Assembly (NCBI GenBank): GCA_937942145.1
Contig: CALDFV010000101.1
Location: 1-43,718 of the forward strand
Source of the DNA: an uncultured Opitutaceae bacterium
Lineage (GTDB): Bacteria > Verrucomicrobiota > Verrucomicrobiia > Opitutales > Opitutaceae
DNA length: 43,718 bases
Direction: 5' to 3'
Shown: positions 25,526 through 36,459 of the stretch, in pieces
Layout: each line of letters starts with the position of its first letter
Position numbering within the stretch: the first letter of the stretch is position 1
The notes under the pieces: model-generated
What the model saw: the letters and a program-made list of their open reading frames with translations, nothing else
What the model was told of the DNA's origin: nothing
Databases searched by the model: none
Translations under genes and position numbers: made by a program

Positions 25526-26998
25526 ATGAGCTTGATCGAATCCTATCAGTCCAACCGAATCGTCGATACGTTTCACACGATCGCCCAGTTCCTATTGGTC
25601 TTTCTCATCCTCGCGGCAGTCAACGCCATTGCCATGCGTTCCTACAAGCGAATCGATACCACGATCGGTCGCACCTACACCCTTTCAGCCCAAACCGTTG
25701 CCTATCTCCATCAGCTCGAACAGCCGATTCAGATTATCGTAACGCTTTCAGACCAAAATGTAGATCTGGGGATTAGAGACATCTATTACGACGTCAAATC
25801 CTTGCTCAGCGAATACGAATATGAAACGCGTAACCAAGGCGAGAACCGCGTTAGCGTTGAATACGTAGACATCTACCAACAAACGAGACGCACTAAAGAG
25901 CTCAACATTAGCGAGGATAACGCGATTATCTTTAGAACTCGGGGTTTGGAGACGCCTAAGTCGATTCAAATTGACGAGCTCTACCGCCTCGAGAATGGCG
26001 AGCTGAGAGAGTTTCTAGGTGAAAACATCTTCACTCGCGCGATACTGGAAATCTCCCAGAAGGAGATCCCCGTCATTTATTTCACCACTGGACACGGAGA
26101 ACTCAACCCAAACGACTTCTCCCCCTCACAGGGAATTTCCAAATTGATGGACGAGCTGAAAAGTCGAAACTTGAAAACCGCTACCCTGGATTTTTCGGCG
26201 AACAGAGAGATTCCCAAAGACGCGGCGCTAGTAGTTATTCCCGCTCCGAAAACGAGGATTCTTCCCCGAGAGCAAGAATTGCTGAAGAGTTTTCTACGAA
26301 AAGAGTCCGGCCGCGTATTGATATTGCTAGAGCCGGATGCAGATCATGGACTAGACGATCTGCTTTTCGAATGGGGGCTTCTGACCGACAAAGCGCTGGC
26401 CATCGAAGCCAGCCGAAACAGCCTCATCGACGGCGGTGACCTCATGGTCCGACGATTCGCGCCCCACCCCATAACAGACAAGCTGCTGAAATTGAACATG
26501 TCCATCATTACAGATCGGGCTCGCGTCGTTCGCGAAGATCCTGGAAGACCGATCGACGAATCACTCATTATAAAAGAACTGATGGCTACTTCGGACAACA
26601 GTTGGGGCGAAAAGAATTACGCCGTCGAGGGCTTCCCCCAGTTCGACCCAGCCGTCGACTTAAAAGGTCCCGTCCGAGTCGCAGCGGTCTCAGAGAAAAA
26701 GGTCGATTCCTCTCTGGGCATCAGCATTCCCGGAGGGCGGCTTATTGTCATCGGCACCTCAAGTTTCATCGCGAATAATCGCATCCAAGCTTCAGGAAAT
26801 CTCTTTCTCGCCCTCAACGCGATCAACTATGCCATCGACCGAGTCGCTCAGCTCAACATTCCTCCAAGGCCGATACAAAAGGTAAAACTGGACCTGAGCA
26901 TGGAACAGCTCCTGCTTTCTCGATATCTCATATGGCTGGGTCCACCTCTTCTCGTCGGTTTCTTGGGAATTCTCATGTATTTAGCCAGAAGGCAGTAA
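25526..26998 (+). CDS. GldG-like ABC transport auxiliary protein
   Basis: A 490-residue protein with one N-terminal helix (about 14-36, TIAQFLLVFLILAAVNAIA), a large soluble domain and one C-terminal helix (about 463-485, LIWLGPPLLVGFLGILMYLA). The GldG/ABC-auxiliary family signature is present: YTLSAQTVAYLHQLEQPIQIIVTLS, SLLSEYEYETRN, VIYFTTGHGELNP, and LEPDADHGLDDLLFEWGL. In Bacteroidetes GldG works with GldA and GldF in gliding motility; here, with no other gliding genes in the window, a general envelope-transport role is equally likely. The strong GGGAGGGAGG upstream of ATG is the ribosome-binding site. Confidence 0.9.
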   Translation: MSLIESYQSNRIVDTFHTIAQFLLVFLILAAVNAIAMRSYKRIDTTIGRTYTLSAQTVAYLHQLEQPIQIIVTLSDQNVDLGIRDIYYDVKSLLSEYEYETRNQGENRVSVEYVDIYQQTRRTKELNISEDNAIIFRTRGLETPKSIQIDELYRLENGELREFLGENIFTRAILEISQKEIPVIYFTTGHGELNPNDFSPSQGISKLMDELKSRNLKTATLDFSANREIPKDAALVVIPAPKTRILPREQELLKSFLRKESGRVLILLEPDADHGLDDLLFEWGLLTDKALAIEASRNSLIDGGDLMVRRFAPHPITDKLLKLNMSIITDRARVVREDPGRPIDESLIIKELMATSDNSWGEKNYAVEGFPQFDPAVDLKGPVRVAAVSEKKVDSSLGISIPGGRLIVIGTSSFIANNRIQASGNLFLALNAINYAIDRVAQLNIPPRPIQKVKLDLSMEQLLLSRYLIWLGPPLLVGFLGILMYLARRQ

Positions 26999-27005
26999 CG
27001 CCACC

Positions 27006-28934
27006 ATGCGACTAAAAATCACACTCACGCTTCTCATAATTCTCTTAGGTCTTCTGACCTACATATTCTACATTGACCCATGGAGTTCCCGTTTACAATT
27101 GGAGGGTGAGGATGACAATGCCCTCGCCTCCCTAGCGGTGGACATCGACTATCTGCGAATCTACGACAATACGAAGAATAGAGCCCTCACGTTGGAGAAA
27201 TCGGAAAACGACTGGATGCTAACCGAGCCTTTCCTCTGGCCGGCAAACACCTTTGCAGTAGAGCGAATTCTCACACAACTTCAATTTCTGGATACCAAGG
27301 TCACCTTCGACGCGGACCGCATCGGCCAGACCGGATCCAGCCTGGCGGAATATGGCCTCGCTCCACCTAGCCTTACGCTTGAATTCGGCAGCAGCGGGAG
27401 CCGCTACTCCATTGGGATCGGAAAAGCTACGGATTTAGGAAACCATCTCTACCTACTCTCATTCGATAAGACCAAAATCCACGTGGTGGATCGCAGCCTG
27501 CTAGACAGCCTTTCCATCGACATTGAGAGCCTTCGCAATCCTCGAATCTTTCGCAGCAACATATTTGAGGTAGATTCCTGGAATCTGCAATTGCAGGACA
27601 ATCTTCGAACCCGAGTCACAAAGAACGAAAACATCTGGACGATCGAAACGCCTATCAATACTCGAGCGGACTCTATCGAGGTAAACACTCTTCTAGGAAA
27701 ACTGCTCGAGTTGAAAAGTCTTCGCGTACTGCAACCCACCCCGGCGGACCTTAGGCTATACGGGTTGCAGGAGCCGTCATTGCGAATCGCCATCGAGTCA
27801 GACCAGAGTCGTGAGGCTCTGGAAGTTGGCAACCCCATAAGTCCAACCGATCCCCTCATACGCTACGGCAAACTCGAAAATCGCAATACGGTTTTTGAAA
27901 TTGAATTAGACTATTTGCCTGAACTGGAGAAAGCGCAGACCAATCTGCGGGACAGACGTATCTTCGAGATCGATACGGCTTATGCCACATCCGTTTCTTT
28001 TGAAAAGGGTGGATCTGAATCCTTTTCACTCCAGAAGTTGGAAACGGACGAATGGGAAATTCTCATTCCCGACGAGGAACAAGGATTCATACGAGAAAAG
28101 GGCTCGAACGAAGCGGTCAAAGACGCCCTCGATTGGCTCAACAAAGTAAAAGCCATCGCCTCGTCAATCTCATCAGGCTTTGTTCACGACGCTCCCACTG
28201 CCGCCGACCTGGAAACCTATGGACTCGAAGTTCCTGAGTATTCGATCCGTATTGCGTCTGGAAGATTGAAGGACCGCACGGAAGAGTCCAAGCCCCCAAA
28301 AGTGGAGACGCTTCTCTTCGGCGATCTTCACAGCGGAGACCGCACATTGAGGTACGTCAAACTTGCCGAATCAGATTTCGTCTATCTCGTTTCAAACGAT
28401 ATTTTGGAAATGGTCCCTGACGTATTGTTCCAATATCAAAGCCGTCGCTTGTATGAAATCCCCGATGACGCGACGATTAACAAATTGTCGATCACTCGCC
28501 TTTCCAACGAGGAGACCTTGCTGGACACATCCATCGAGGACAGTAACTTGCCCCTCGAACTGGTCGATTCGCTTACCCCTCTAGAGGTAAAGTCCTATCT
28601 ATTCGATCAATACACTTCTAACGTCTCCATCGCGGGAAAACGGCAAAGTTGGGCCTACTTGATGAACGTCACTTTCCAGTGGGCGAGCGCTGACACAGGA
28701 CACTCGAAAAGCGTCGAACTCTACGTTTCAGAATTGACGGGAGGACCACTCCTCCTTGGCGGCTCGATCGATAGAAACTCGGTTTTTGAGTTTCGGCAGC
28801 CATTTATCGACGCTTTTAGCTCGGTAGTTTTCGATCGTATTAAGCGCCCCGTTCCCGAAGAACCCTTTGATTCTGATCTGCCTCTCCCATCTGTAGGGGA
28901 AGAACCCGCCAGTCCCGATACCGAGCAGCAATAG
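27006..28934 (+). CDS. DUF4340 protein with three repeat units
   Basis: A 642-residue protein with an N-terminal transmembrane helix (about 3-22, KITLTLLIILLGLLTYIFYI) and extracytoplasmic body. The DUF4340 pattern occurs at least three times: about residues 50-160 (LRIYDN...WMLTEPF...LAEYGLAPPSLTLEFG), about 190-300 (IWTIETP...LRLYGLQEPSLRIAIE) and about 340-440 (WEILIPD...LETYGLEVPEYSIRIAS). The repeat ends each time with a YGL-E/A-PP/PS/PE motif. DUF4340 genes are typical companions of GldFG-like ABC modules. It starts 7 bp after the GldG-like gene and is followed by an AsmA-like gene, so it acts with that machine; its molecular role is unknown. Confidence 0.9.
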   Translation: MRLKITLTLLIILLGLLTYIFYIDPWSSRLQLEGEDDNALASLAVDIDYLRIYDNTKNRALTLEKSENDWMLTEPFLWPANTFAVERILTQLQFLDTKVTFDADRIGQTGSSLAEYGLAPPSLTLEFGSSGSRYSIGIGKATDLGNHLYLLSFDKTKIHVVDRSLLDSLSIDIESLRNPRIFRSNIFEVDSWNLQLQDNLRTRVTKNENIWTIETPINTRADSIEVNTLLGKLLELKSLRVLQPTPADLRLYGLQEPSLRIAIESDQSREALEVGNPISPTDPLIRYGKLENRNTVFEIELDYLPELEKAQTNLRDRRIFEIDTAYATSVSFEKGGSESFSLQKLETDEWEILIPDEEQGFIREKGSNEAVKDALDWLNKVKAIASSISSGFVHDAPTAADLETYGLEVPEYSIRIASGRLKDRTEESKPPKVETLLFGDLHSGDRTLRYVKLAESDFVYLVSNDILEMVPDVLFQYQSRRLYEIPDDATINKLSITRLSNEETLLDTSIEDSNLPLELVDSLTPLEVKSYLFDQYTSNVSIAGKRQSWAYLMNVTFQWASADTGHSKSVELYVSELTGGPLLLGGSIDRNSVFEFRQPFIDAFSSVVFDRIKRPVPEEPFDSDLPLPSVGEEPASPDTEQQ

Positions 28935-31847: not shown

Positions 31848-31877
31848 TTGACGTCGCAAAAAGTATCACAATATCTT
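31848..31877 (+). promoter_or_regulatory. nrdB promoter candidate
   Basis: TTGACG (31848-31853), an 18-base spacer and TATCTT (31872-31877) resemble a sigma-70 promoter; the -10 lies inside the first NrdR-like box, so repressor binding would block it. The first transcribed base would be about 31884, leaving a leader of about 165 bases before nrdB. Confidence 0.45.
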
Positions 31878-31881
31878 GTGG
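31866..31881 (+). promoter_or_regulatory. NrdR box 1
   Basis: TCACAATATCTTGTGG matches the NrdR consensus (acaCwAtATaTwGtgt) at 13 of 16 positions. NrdR represses ribonucleotide reductase genes and is expected in this organism, although its gene is not in the window. It overlaps the putative -10 element. Confidence 0.65.
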
Positions 31882-31896
31882 TCTTATTCTAAAGGG

Positions 31897-31912
31897 CCAC
31901 ACCATCTAGTGG
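31897..31912 (+). promoter_or_regulatory. NrdR box 2
   Basis: CCACACCATCTAGTGG is a weaker match to the NrdR consensus with the same CAC...GTG half-sites. It starts exactly 31 bp after box 1, the three-turn spacing that NrdR sites usually have. The spacing is the main reason for the call. Confidence 0.55.
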
Positions 31913-32048: not shown

Positions 32049-33134
32049 ATGGATAAAACGTACACAGTCGGCAATAAAACCTTCTTACTAGACCAGGAAA
32101 AAGCAGAAAGAGCATTCGCGGAAAAGCGTGTCATCAATGGCCGCCAATCGATGTGTTTTAACCTCCTCCCGCTTAAGTACCACTGGGCTTACGACTTGTA
32201 CAAAACGATGAAGGCGAACCACTGGGAGCCGGAGGACATCATCATGAACCGCGACATCGAGCAATGGAAGGACAACTCCGTCGTTTCCGATATCGAGCGC
32301 TGGATCATTATGATGGGCGTGGGCTACTTTTCCGCTGCCGAAGGCATTGTAGGGGATAACGTTATACACGTCATCCGTGAGCGCGTGACCGCTCCCGAGC
32401 TCAAGCTCGTCCTCGGCCGCCACAGCCACGAAGAGAACATCCATGCGGACTCGCTGCTCTACATGATCAGCTCGTTGGGCATCAACCCGCACGAGTGCGA
32501 GGCGATGTTCGAAGACATCGAGACCATCGTAAAGAAGAACGAGTTCGTCACCCGCACGTCGCACGGCCTGCGTCGGGACATGGATCTTACCGAGCCTCGC
32601 AACAAGCAGATCTTTGCCAAGAACCTTTTCGTGTTCGGACAATGCATGGAAGGCACCCAGTTCTACGGAATGTTCGGGATGATCCTTTCTTTGTATCGGC
32701 AGAACAAATTCCGGGGCATCGGCGAAATGTTCCGCTACACGCTGCGCGACGAGTCCAACCACATCGAATTGCTCCGCAACCTCCTCATGGAACTCGTAGA
32801 CGAGAATCCGGAGATCTGGACCAAAGCGTTCAAGCAGGAATTGCGCGACACCATGGCGGAAGCGGTCGCCTTGGAAAAAGATTTCATTAGCGATTGCCTG
32901 CCCATGGATTCCATCGGCTTGCGCAAAGAAGATTTCCTCCAGTACATCGACTACATTGCGGACCGGCGACTCGAAGGAGTCGGCCTCGAGCCGCTCATTG
33001 GTGATGTCAAAAACCCGCTGCCTTGGCTAGCGGAAATGATGGACATTAAGAAGGAGCAAAACTTCTTCGAAGGACGCGTTACGGAATATCAGAAGGCGTC
33101 CTCTCTCGATCTCGATAGCGACGACGACCTCTAG
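32049..33134 (+). CDS. nrdB: ribonucleotide reductase small subunit, class Ic-like (Leu at radical site)
   Basis: A 361-residue class I R2 subunit that generates the oxidant for ribonucleotide reduction. The dinuclear metal site is complete: Glu98 (SAAEGIVG), Glu129 and His132 (EENIH), Glu201 (MEGTQFY), Glu235 and His238 (RDESNH). The residue four after His132, where E. coli has the radical Tyr122 and Chlamydia trachomatis Phe127, is Leu136 (HADSLLY). The first ligand is Glu rather than Asp, as in chlamydial class Ic. Trp73 and Tyr230 match the chlamydial Trp51 and Tyr222 relay, and Tyr347 matches the C-terminal coupling tyrosine. Hence it is probably a tyrosyl-radical-independent, Mn/Fe-type R2; the metal is inferred. 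The C-terminus is acidic (LDSDDDL). It precedes nrdA by 124 bp. Confidence 0.95.
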   Translation: MDKTYTVGNKTFLLDQEKAERAFAEKRVINGRQSMCFNLLPLKYHWAYDLYKTMKANHWEPEDIIMNRDIEQWKDNSVVSDIERWIIMMGVGYFSAAEGIVGDNVIHVIRERVTAPELKLVLGRHSHEENIHADSLLYMISSLGINPHECEAMFEDIETIVKKNEFVTRTSHGLRRDMDLTEPRNKQIFAKNLFVFGQCMEGTQFYGMFGMILSLYRQNKFRGIGEMFRYTLRDESNHIELLRNLLMELVDENPEIWTKAFKQELRDTMAEAVALEKDFISDCLPMDSIGLRKEDFLQYIDYIADRRLEGVGLEPLIGDVKNPLPWLAEMMDIKKEQNFFEGRVTEYQKASSLDLDSDDDL

Positions 33135-33258: not shown

Positions 33259-36200
33259 ATGATCAATCCCACCCTCGAAGAAGACATCGCTCTAAAGCGC
33301 CTCGTATCCGTTTCCCGTGAAAAGAAGCTGGGATACAATTGGCGTGCTGAAAGTAGTGACGTAGACGAATCGGAAAAATCCAAGATTCACGTCGTTACCC
33401 ACGAAGGCGAAGCCACTTTCGACCAGAACGAGATTATGGACACCATTGGCAACGCTTTGGCCAACGTGCTTATGTCCAAAAACGAGAAAGACATTTTTAC
33501 CGACAAGAACCGGGATTGGGTACAAGTTGTCGCTAAGCAGGTATGCGAAAAGCTTGAGGCAAAGTCCGCTTCGACTCGGGAGACGCGTTTTGGATTGGGT
33601 GAACTGTACGATGTTATTGAACATACTCTGGTAGAAAATGACGCATATGATGTAGCCAAATGCATGCTCATGAACCGCCAACGCAAGATCGCCACGGAGC
33701 AAAACCCTGGCCTGAAAACACTTCGATTGATCCGCCGCAACGGGCAGGTCGTGCCTTGGAAGGAACAAAAGATCGAAATCGCCGTTCGCAAAGCCTTCCT
33801 CACATTGGAAATGAATTCCGAGCCGTCCGTCGCGGTGGCCCGCGGCATTACCGAACGCCTCGAAGCTACTGGCCAAGCCTTCGTGCAAATCGAGGAAGTC
33901 CAGGACATGGTTCAAGAAGAGCTCATGCGCCAAGGCCATTTCAAAGTAGCCGAACACTACATTCTTTATAGAGCCCAACGCCGTGCCTTGCGCGAGGCGG
34001 AAGCCCTCCAGGGCGTAGACACGCCGGAGCAAAATTCCATGGTCGTCGTCAAAAACGACGATGGCTCCACCTATTTCTGGGACGGCGTTGATCTCAAAAA
34101 GCGAATCGACTTCGCCATGATCGGACTCGATCTCTGCCTCAGTTTCGAGGAAATCGAAACCGAGCTCCGTCGCTCCATCTTCGACGAGATCAGCGAGGAT
34201 GGCCTGCAGAAGACCGTTACCCTCAACGCTCGCACCTTGATCGAGCAAGACGCGGACTTCGCCAAGTTCGCCGCCCGTATCCAGCTCTCTTATATCTATG
34301 AAGAGGTGCTCGGCTGGGACATTGTCAAAGACGGCGTACGAGCTCTCAAGAAATTCCACCAGAAGAAATTCAAGGAGTACGTCAAATACGGCACTAAAAT
34401 CGGCCGCCTCAACGACAAGATCAAAGACTACAATATCGACGAGCTCGCTAAAAGCCTCGATCCGTCCGCCGACCTCGAGCTCGACTACCTCGGCGTACAG
34501 ACCTTGTACGACCGCTACCTCATCATCGATAAGACCAAAGGTCTTTCCAACCAGCGCCGCATCGAAACGCCCCAGTTCTTCTGGATGCGCGTCGCTATGG
34601 GACTCTTCTCGGCAGAGGAAGAGAAAGAAGTGAAGGCCAAGGCCCTCTACAAACTCTACAAGAGCCGTCGCTTCTGCTCGTCCACCCCCACTCTTTTCAA
34701 TTCCGGCACCTGCCACTCCCAGCTCTCTTCCTGCTATCTCTACTACGTGGATGATTCCATCGAGGGCATCATGCAGCGCGGTATCGCTGAAAATGCCTAC
34801 CTCTCCAAATGGGCCGGTGGACTCGGCGGAAGCTGGACCGCCGTTCGCGGAACGGGCAGCCACATTTCCGGCACCAACGGCGAGAGCCAAGGCATCGTTC
34901 CTTTCCTCAAGCTGCACAACGACCTTCTCATCGCGGTCAACCAAGGTGGTAAACGTCGCGGTTCAGGCTGCGCGTACTTGGAAACGTGGCACAACGATCT
35001 CTACGATTTCCTAGAGCTCCGCAAGAACACCGGTGACGACCGTCGCCGCTGTCACGACATGAACACAGCCAACTGGATTCCCGACTTGTTCATGAAACGT
35101 ATGGAGGAACGCGGCGAGTGGAGCTTCTTCCGCTCCAGCGAGGCTCCCGATCTCCACGACGCCTATGGCAAGGACTTCGAAGAGAAGTACACCGCCTACG
35201 AAGCCAAAGCCCTCAAGGGTGAAATGTGGTCCAAAACCGTTCCCGCCATCGAAGTGTGGAAACTGATGCTCCGCATGATTTTCGAGACCGGCCACCCATG
35301 GATCACCTTCAAAGATCCTTGCAACGTCCGCTCGCCTCAGGATCACGTCGGCGTGGTCCACTCGTCCAACCTTTGTACCGAGATCACGCTCAACACGAGC
35401 AATGACGAAACGGCCGTGTGTAATCTTGGTAGCGTCGTCCTCGATCAGCACTTGGATAAGGATGGCAACATCGACCACAAGAAGCTCAAGGAGACGGTCC
35501 ACACCGCTATCCGTGCACTCGACAATGTGATCGATATCAACTTCTACCCGACCGAAGCAGCCAAGCGTTCCAACCAGGCCCACCGTCCGATCGGACTCGG
35601 CGTCATGGGGCTGCAGAACGCGCTCTACATTCGTAACATTCCGTTCGCTTCCCAGGAAGCCGTCGAATTCAACGACGAAGCCATGGAAGCCATCGCCTAC
35701 TACGCCATCGAAGCGTCTAGCGACTTGGCAGCTGAGCGCGGCGCCTACAACAGCTACAAGGGCTCCAAGTGGGATCGCGGTCTCCTGCCGCAAGACACAC
35801 TCGACCTTCTCGAGGAAGAACGCGGCGCAGTCGTGGATGTCCCCCGTGGCGGCAAGCTTGACTGGACTCCCATCCGTAAGAAGATCGCCAAACACGGCAT
35901 GCGCAATTCCAACGTCATGGCCATCGCCCCCACGGCGACCATCTCGAACATCACCGGCACCTCCCCTTGTATCGAGCCTTCCTACAAGAATCTCTTTGTT
36001 AAGAGCAACCTCTCCGGAGAATTTACCATTCTCAACCAGCACCTCGTTCGCGACCTCAAAGCCCGCGGCCTCTGGAACACGGACATGCTCAACAACCTGA
36101 AGTACTTCGACGGCGAACTCGACGAAATCGAGGAAATCCCCGAAGACCTCAAGCTCAAGTACAAGACCGCCTTCGCCGTCGACTACAGCTGGTTGGTATT

Positions 36201-36459
36201 GGCTGCCGCGCGACGTCAGAAATGGATCGACCAAAGCCAATCAGTAAATCTCTTCCTCGCCACGCCAGACATGAAGACCCTGTCCCACATGTACCGTGCC
36301 GCCTGGAAGCACGGCCTCAAGACCACCTACTACCTCCGCACCCTCGGCGCCTCCAACATCGAGAAAGCCACCATCGGAGCTAAGAAAGACCTCCGAGGTG
36401 TAGTAGCCACCTCGCAAGCCAACACCGAAGAACCCGAGGTTTGCGAGAGCTGCCAGTAG
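33259..36459 (+). CDS. nrdA: ribonucleotide reductase large subunit with tandem ATP-cones
   Basis: A 1066-residue class I R1. Two ATP-cone allosteric domains sit at the N-terminus, about residues 42-150 (more degenerate) and 152-245 (IRRNGQVVPWKEQKIEIAVRKAF...VQDMVQEELMRQGHFKVAEHYILYRAQRR), then the ten-stranded barrel. Catalytic residues are present: Cys492 and Cys721 as the reducing pair, Asn704-Leu-Cys706-Thr-Glu708 (NLCTE) at the thiyl site, radical-transfer Tyr1024-Tyr1025, and a C-terminal Cys1062-x-x-Cys1065 (CESC) shuttle. It reduces ribonucleoside diphosphates with NrdB. The cone duplication and length resemble chlamydial NrdA, consistent with shared PVC ancestry. A strong terminator follows. 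Confidence 0.97.
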   Translation: MINPTLEEDIALKRLVSVSREKKLGYNWRAESSDVDESEKSKIHVVTHEGEATFDQNEIMDTIGNALANVLMSKNEKDIFTDKNRDWVQVVAKQVCEKLEAKSASTRETRFGLGELYDVIEHTLVENDAYDVAKCMLMNRQRKIATEQNPGLKTLRLIRRNGQVVPWKEQKIEIAVRKAFLTLEMNSEPSVAVARGITERLEATGQAFVQIEEVQDMVQEELMRQGHFKVAEHYILYRAQRRALREAEALQGVDTPEQNSMVVVKNDDGSTYFWDGVDLKKRIDFAMIGLDLCLSFEEIETELRRSIFDEISEDGLQKTVTLNARTLIEQDADFAKFAARIQLSYIYEEVLGWDIVKDGVRALKKFHQKKFKEYVKYGTKIGRLNDKIKDYNIDELAKSLDPSADLELDYLGVQTLYDRYLIIDKTKGLSNQRRIETPQFFWMRVAMGLFSAEEEKEVKAKALYKLYKSRRFCSSTPTLFNSGTCHSQLSSCYLYYVDDSIEGIMQRGIAENAYLSKWAGGLGGSWTAVRGTGSHISGTNGESQGIVPFLKLHNDLLIAVNQGGKRRGSGCAYLETWHNDLYDFLELRKNTGDDRRRCHDMNTANWIPDLFMKRMEERGEWSFFRSSEAPDLHDAYGKDFEEKYTAYEAKALKGEMWSKTVPAIEVWKLMLRMIFETGHPWITFKDPCNVRSPQDHVGVVHSSNLCTEITLNTSNDETAVCNLGSVVLDQHLDKDGNIDHKKLKETVHTAIRALDNVIDINFYPTEAAKRSNQAHRPIGLGVMGLQNALYIRNIPFASQEAVEFNDEAMEAIAYYAIEASSDLAAERGAYNSYKGSKWDRGLLPQDTLDLLEEERGAVVDVPRGGKLDWTPIRKKIAKHGMRNSNVMAIAPTATISNITGTSPCIEPSYKNLFVKSNLSGEFTILNQHLVRDLKARGLWNTDMLNNLKYFDGELDEIEEIPEDLKLKYKTAFAVDYSWLVLAAARRQKWIDQSQSVNLFLATPDMKTLSHMYRAAWKHGLKTTYYLRTLGASNIEKATIGAKKDLRGVVATSQANTEEPEVCESCQ

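Follow-up and report, generated by a model that had tools for sequence, protein, structure and literature searches.

The window analysed here, a stretch of 43,718 nucleotides from an uncultured Opitutaceae bacterium of the phylum Verrucomicrobiota, contains the genes for both subunits of a ribonucleotide reductase (RNR), nrdB for the beta subunit (R2) and nrdA for the alpha subunit (R1) (Table 1). NrdB is matched by PF00268 with 227 bits and lies above the cut-offs of two NCBIfam ribonucleotide reductase beta models. In NrdA, C492, C706, C721, Y1024 and Y1025 align with C225, C439, C462, Y730 and Y731 of the E. coli protein, equivalents of E. coli N437 and E441 are also kept, and the C-terminal end carries a CxxC motif. 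The ATP-cone region of NrdA has one clear Pfam match, with three matched stretches at E values up to 1.

Table 1. Positions in the window of the RNR genes, of the codons discussed and of the putative regulatory sites
Feature	Positions	Strand	Basis or comment
NrdR-box-like site 1	31866-31881	+	13/16 to the assumed consensus
NrdR-box-like site 2	31897-31912	+	11/16 to the assumed consensus; starts 31 bp after the start of site 1
nrdB (R2, beta subunit), Leu/Glu type	32049-33134	+	ORF from ATG to TAG, 361 aa
Trp59 codon (C. trachomatis Trp51 equivalent)	32223-32225	+	alignment
Glu98 codon, first metal ligand (C. trachomatis Glu89, E. coli Asp84)	32340-32342	+	alignment
Glu129 to His132 codons, ligands Glu129 and His132	32433-32444	+	counted from ORF start, alignment
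Leu136 codon CTG (E. coli Tyr122, C. trachomatis Phe127 position)	32454-32456	+	alignment
Glu201 codon, metal ligand	32649-32651	+	counted from ORF start, alignment
Tyr230 codon (C. trachomatis Tyr222)	32736-32738	+	alignment
Thr231 codon (C. trachomatis I223, E. coli I234; Ile in 18/18 Phe-type R2 rows)	32739-32741	+	
Glu235 to His238 codons, ligands Glu235 and His238	32751-32762	+	counted from ORF start, alignment
Tyr347 codon, C-terminal relay Tyr (C. trachomatis Tyr338)	33087-33089	+	alignment
nrdA (R1, alpha subunit)	33259-36459	+	1066 aa, downstream of nrdB

The two sites upstream of nrdB were scored against what we take to be the NrdR consensus. None of 2000 base shuffles gave an equally good pair, and an NrdR gene is present in the genome. 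Among the 80 named relatives, 25 were inspected for such a pair; in 23 of these no more than 4 out of 200 shuffles equalled the best pair, and weaker pairs occur in L184 and L210 (22 and 50 of 200 shuffles, respectively). Comparison with seven relatives gave dN/dS values of 0.02-0.13 for nrdB (with dS above 1 in four of the seven and 0.91 in one), which points to strong purifying selection. No Rfam family reached its gathering score in the window. At 25526-28934, the window also contains adjoining genes with ABC_transp_aux/DUF7088 and DUF4340 domains, presumably resembling gliding-type ABC transporter auxiliary proteins; no link between these genes and the RNR operon was seen.

The motif region of NrdB aligns without gaps with the R2c protein of Chlamydia trachomatis (1syy), placing E129, H132 and L136 opposite E120, H123 and F127; NrdB of E. 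coli MG1655 has E115, H118 and Y122 in the same columns. The ligands E98, E129, H132, E201, E235 and H238 stand opposite E89, E120, H123, E193, E227 and H230 of the chlamydial protein. The initial annotation had placed a leucine at the radical tyrosine position and had described all six metal ligands as intact, with glutamate as the first. Both statements are borne out by the alignments to the C. trachomatis and E. coli proteins, in which the column of Tyr122 holds Leu136 and no tyrosine. Its pairing of Tyr230 with chlamydial Tyr222 is also correct, but Trp73, which it took for the Trp51 equivalent, lies opposite Trp65 of C. trachomatis and Tyr62 of E. coli. The equivalent of Trp51 is Trp59, since residue 14 of NrdB aligns with chlamydial residue 6 and there is no gap up to that point (offset 8). 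Trp59 is invariant across 11 aligned sequences. With Trp59, Asp234, Tyr230 and Tyr347, NrdB keeps the counterparts of chlamydial W51, D226, Y222 and Y338, of which W51, Y222 and Y338 are electron relay residues, and by homology the same roles may be expected here.

Among proteins of known structure, a phmmer search of the PDB ranked C. trachomatis R2c (1syy) first with 272 bits and 6y2n, the R2 of Saccharopolyspora erythraea (PMC7467353), second with 248 bits; E. coli chains scored about 62 bits. Both top solved R2s are of the Phe/Glu type. A first structure model, built from 43 sequences that were all close (alignment A2), was discarded at a mean pLDDT of 59.8. The model used was built from 42 sequences with viral R2s added (alignment A4) and has a pLDDT of 87.4, with low values for residues 331-361. 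When it was used for a fold search of the PDB, the 13 best matches were all C. trachomatis NrdB chains, followed by 6y2n (rmsd 1.3 over 303 columns) and then the Aquifex aeolicus R2m. The helix that carries Glu98 (residues 81-112) is unbroken in the predicted model. This is weak evidence, because in the class Id enzyme of L. blandensis the helix break is described as seen only upon metal loading (PMC8463856, PMC6754362).

With this protein as query, an R2 was found in 73 of 100 genomes from the family and in 125 of 387 from the phylum, the two sets overlapping. The sequences compared comprise 164 homologue loci, gathered from part of the places listed, plasmid, phage and E. coli references, and, as further named loci, the best 80 of at least 564 confirmed stretches (out of at least 588) from a scan of genome_contigs. 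All homologues come from searches started with the window's NrdB (P0001) or with an alignment that has it as first sequence, a sampling that does not extend to R2s of the Tyr/Glu type (class Id). Residue 136 is Leu in 191, Phe in 18 and Tyr in 24 of the 236 distinct rows, which include three references, and 3 rows have no letter there. Leu136, Glu98, Thr231, Tyr230 and Tyr347 are present in all 186 other rows that are at least 65% identical to P0001, a set chosen by identity and independently of residue 136. All six ligands are found in 185 of these 186 rows, and the exception, L102, has Gln at 201. At 45-54% identity follow L048 and three degenerate copies in tandem, which have Leu as well; the Phe rows come next, at 42%. 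The leucine is thus common to relatives across Verrucomicrobiota and not a one-off, and its presence in relatives from many separate assemblies rules out a sequencing error as its source. R2s 76-78% identical to NrdB were also seen in metagenome-assembled genomes labelled Rubrivivax, Akkermansia muciniphila and Planctomycetaceae (L205, L237, L238 and L240), for which the labels or bins are perhaps wrong.

With 80 viral sequences added, Glu98 occurs with Leu in 190 of 316 rows, with Phe in 23 and with Val in one, and Asp98 occurs with Tyr in 98; the remainder are one degenerate copy (Gln/Leu) and three rows that lack letters. Glu/Tyr and Asp/non-Tyr pairings are absent from these 316 rows, which include many close kin and do not cover class Id. 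The figures are counts of sequences rather than of independent events, and on a tree of 44 rows residue 136 needs five changes. The Leu type was absent from the 80 sequences kept out of 583 relatives in a wider search with alignment A3 (74 Tyr, 5 Phe, 1 Val), and when viral_contigs was scanned with alignment A1 of the Leu clade, none of the 29 pattern matches was confirmed.

A second mark of the group is found at position 231, which is Thr in the Leu clade, Ile in all the Phe rows, and Ile in 21 and Ser in 3 of the 24 Tyr rows. We take E. coli I234, the residue opposite Thr231, to be a pocket isoleucine that has been described in yeast numbering. That isoleucine is one of three residues reported to make up the pocket that surrounds the tyrosyl radical (PMC3824934). 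In the class Id protein of L. blandensis, Thr294 is described as hydrogen-bonding the silent tyrosine and precedes the fifth ligand, Glu298, by four residues (PMC6754362); the offset between Thr231 and Glu235 is the same. The Leu clade thus combines a class Ic-like inert residue with a threonine present in class Id, and we name Glu98, Leu136 and Thr231 as its three-residue signature. A viral R2 from IMG/VR (L275:2501-3454) has Val at the radical tyrosine position, Glu as the first ligand and Thr at 231, and is the sole Val protein among the 316 rows.

In each of three trees the Leu rows group as a single clade, with SH-aLRT support of 98 (64 rows), 94/83 (55 rows) and 97/92 (44 rows). The 64-row tree has very long branches, and dropping nine rows gave the 55-row tree. 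The 44-row tree, too, omits the degenerate copies and the Tyr rows that are distant, which leaves the position of the Leu clade relative to the deep Tyr groups weakly resolved. In all three trees the Leu clade lies outside the clade that contains C. trachomatis, which mixes Phe/Glu and Tyr/Asp members. The initial annotation had read NrdB as a class Ic-like enzyme free of a tyrosyl radical and had called for a phylogeny. The reading holds with respect to the missing Tyr122, the glutamate as first ligand and the chlamydial R2c as nearest solved relative, and the Leu rows do group together, but the three trees lend no support to membership in the chlamydial lineage of Phe and Tyr proteins.

A clade of Leu and C. 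trachomatis-type Phe rows was marginally rejected by the AU test (p-AU 0.044), which makes a direct sisterhood of the Leu clade with the chlamydial type doubtful. Grouping Leu and Phe as one clade gave a p-AU of 0.103, and grouping all Glu-ligand rows (Leu, Phe and Val) a p-AU of 0.172, so that a single origin of the R2s with Glu and without Tyr is compatible with the data. For a clade of Phe and plasmid Tyr rows, the p-AU was 0.569. In one group with a support of 83/100, Tyr/Asp R2s and Phe/Glu R2s interleave (L246-L249, L255 and L256 versus L250, L257 and 6y2n). Because of this interleaving, the switch between tyrosyl-radical and metal-only R2s seems to have occurred more than once near class Ic.

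Fourteen genomes with a Leu-type R2 were searched for other RNRs with PF02867 and NRDD, and nine of them also with NrdJ and RTPR. In the genome of the window, which is 88% complete, the searches for these four alpha families matched nrdA alone. The same holds for six of the other genomes searched with all four (G048, G078, G385, G012, G071 and G394), so that nrdA is the sole match in seven of nine; G048, G071 and G394 are single contigs. For these seven genomes, the four-family searches rule out that the Leu R2 is a mere extra beside another RNR. It is not the sole RNR everywhere, as 7 of the 14 genomes hold a further RNR-like match. In G045, G076, G254, G446 and G143, these are PF02867 or NRDD matches. 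In G020 and G049, class II-like (RTPR-type) genes that were missed by PF02867 occur alongside the Leu-type class I genes (G020:C1:3940871-3942883 and G049:C1:4041183-4043198); their best stretches score 104 and 94 bits with TIGR02505, below the family cut-off. Among 14 control genomes, PF02867 was positive in 11; it gave no match in C. glutamicum, which has a class Ib enzyme, so that misses are possible elsewhere. As the only RNR found in seven genomes, the Leu R2 must work, and if it works without the tyrosine, the oxidant would have to be held elsewhere.

Some relatives carry a second R2 gene. Directly upstream of the Leu-type nrdB, G446 and 12 g235 genomes (L339-L348, L361-L363; in G446 the gene is L047:2955-4013) and G473 and G505 (L359, L360) encode a full-length second NrdB without metal ligands that keeps a DDDL-type C-terminus. 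The residues at the ligand positions are Q98, R132, V/I/T235 and R238 in G446 and the 12 g235 genomes, and G98, Q129, Q132, A235 and R238 in G473 and G505. This copy is present in 15 of 145 genomes searched in that family, and at least two other g235 genomes have a fragment or no match; in G505, it is the adjoining Leu-type nrdB that is split over two frames. The ligand-less NrdB appears to be a conserved partner subunit that holds no metal, by analogy with the yeast Rnr2/Rnr4 pair; a narrow literature search with combined terms gave no match for a metal-free NrdB partner. A different second NrdB lies between nrdB and nrdA in two of the nine genomes of one genus (L045:4447-5529 in G045 and L046:6896-7993 in G076). 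It keeps the six ligands, has Asn for Tyr230, His for Tyr138 and His for Phe209, and has lost a conserved NFFE stretch. In the Pseudomonas phage vB_PpuM-Lauda, a 'hypothetical protein' that precedes the phage nrdB (L253:325-1107) matches PF00268 with an E value of 0.00016, below the cut-off, and without the ligand pattern; it is perhaps a degenerate R2.

According to PMC8463856, classes Ia and Ib are marked by Tyr/Asp, class Ic by Phe/Glu and class Id by Tyr/Glu. The Leu136/Glu98 pair of NrdB departs from the Tyr/Asp pair, from the Tyr/Glu pair and, in the strict wording of that source, also from the Phe/Glu pair of class Ic. The closest known system is nevertheless C. trachomatis R2c (1syy, 4d8f, 4m1i), the best match by both sequence and fold, with which NrdB shares the glutamate as first ligand, the six ligands, an inert residue at the Tyr122 position and the Trp/Tyr relay. 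It differs from this protein in having Leu136 for Phe127 and Thr231 for Ile223, in an identity of 37-38% and in belonging to a separate clade. The S. erythraea protein likewise has Phe and sits in the mixed Phe/Tyr group.

We consider it likely that NrdB is a class Ic-like R2 that uses its metal cluster, probably Mn(IV)/Fe(III), as the oxidant. The case for a metal-centred oxidant is strong, and that for the Mn/Fe identity of the cofactor, which relies on analogy, is moderate. Two observations weigh against this reading: the Leu clade does not group with the chlamydial Phe clade, so that the trees give no basis for a cofactor shared by descent from class Ic, and Thr231 is shared with class Id and not with the Phe-type rows. 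On the preferred reading, NrdB would be the beta subunit of a functional class I enzyme with which the cell reduces ribonucleotides aerobically. Since position 136 holds Leu, the stable tyrosyl radical known from classes Ia and Ib could not form. Instead, O2 would react at the dinuclear site made up of E98, E129, H132, E201, E235 and H238, and the metals, most likely in the Mn(IV)/Fe(III) form known from the chlamydial R2c, would retain the oxidizing equivalent. Each turnover would move an electron from Cys706 of NrdA via its Tyr1024/Tyr1025, then Tyr347 and Trp59/Asp234 of NrdB, to the cluster. During activation, electrons would enter by way of Tyr230, as they do by way of Tyr222 in C. trachomatis.

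Chemistry of the class Id kind, with a Mn2(IV,III) oxidant made with superoxide and Leu replacing the silent tyrosine, appears unlikely, although some features speak for it. P0001 scores only 35 bits against 6cwo, the best of the listed 6cwo, 6cwp and 6cwq chains, versus 272 bits against the C. trachomatis protein; we take 6cwo to belong to the same class Id set as 6cwp. The latter is a class Id structure (PMC8463856). NrdB shares the glutamate as first ligand with class Id proteins (NrdBi; L. blandensis, F. ignava, F. johnsoniae; PMC8463856), and the threonine four residues before the fifth ligand with that of L. blandensis (PMC6754362). However, class Id is described as conserving and needing its tyrosine (PMC8463856), where NrdB has Leu136. 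The Trp seven residues after the first ligand and the Lys that a class Id subgroup has four residues after it (PMC6754362) are Val105 and Gly102 here, and NrdA has an ATP cone, which class Id alpha subunits are said to lack (PMC8463856). A stable radical on another side chain is a good deal less probable still. One candidate, Tyr138, is present in all 186 rows that share 65% identity or more with P0001. Yet the same residue is found in C. trachomatis R2c as Tyr129, and that enzyme is metal-centred in spite of it; moreover, L048, the deepest member of the Leu clade with all ligands, has His at 138.

The loss of the radical tyrosine and the occurrence of degenerate paralogues in relatives could also be taken to mean that NrdB, rather than being a functional R2, is a dead paralogue or an oxidase of the R2-like kind. 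This is very hard to reconcile with the six ligands, Tyr347 and the C-terminal tail being kept, with the adjoining nrdA, the NrdR boxes and the lack of any other RNR match in the four-family searches of the genome, and with the apparent strong purifying selection. We also take position H_17, as it is called for R2lox, to be that of E. coli Phe208, where NrdB has Phe205. R2lox proteins are described as having a specific Ala at H_17 (PMC3824934). A more substantial, but still tentative, possibility is that R2s with Leu136, Glu98 and Thr231 form a separate metal-only subclass. Such a subclass might have lost the tyrosine independently of the chlamydial Phe type and rebuilt the tyrosine pocket in its own way, with an aliphatic residue and Thr (Val and Thr in L275), and its cofactor may differ from those of classes Ic and Id.

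If NrdB is assigned to the class Ic-like R2s, as we prefer, the leucine as such is not new. It had been expected to extend the residue range of R2c, but replacements of the Phe by Leu, Ile and Val are already documented in this group (Hogbom 2010, as cited by PMC3824934), and those variants resemble NrdB in having Leu instead of Phe. By 2014, 150 R2 sequences without the radical tyrosine were on record (PMC4118035). The available text of PMC5794259 and PMC11883743 makes no mention of a Leu-type R2, and among the titles and abstracts listed for Verrucomicrobia R2 proteins and for Opitutus ribonucleotide reductase, none deals with the Leu clade. As far as the literature searched shows, what is added here is a clade that spans the phylum, is marked by the Thr and stands apart in the trees.

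If the ligand-less NrdB of some relatives acts as a partner of the Leu-type protein, the two would be a bacterial counterpart of yeast Rnr2/Rnr4. In several free-living Verrucomicrobiota, the Leu-site R2 is part of the only RNR that the searches for four families detected (7 of 9 genomes). Tyr-less R2s are therefore no peculiarity of the intracellular chlamydiae.
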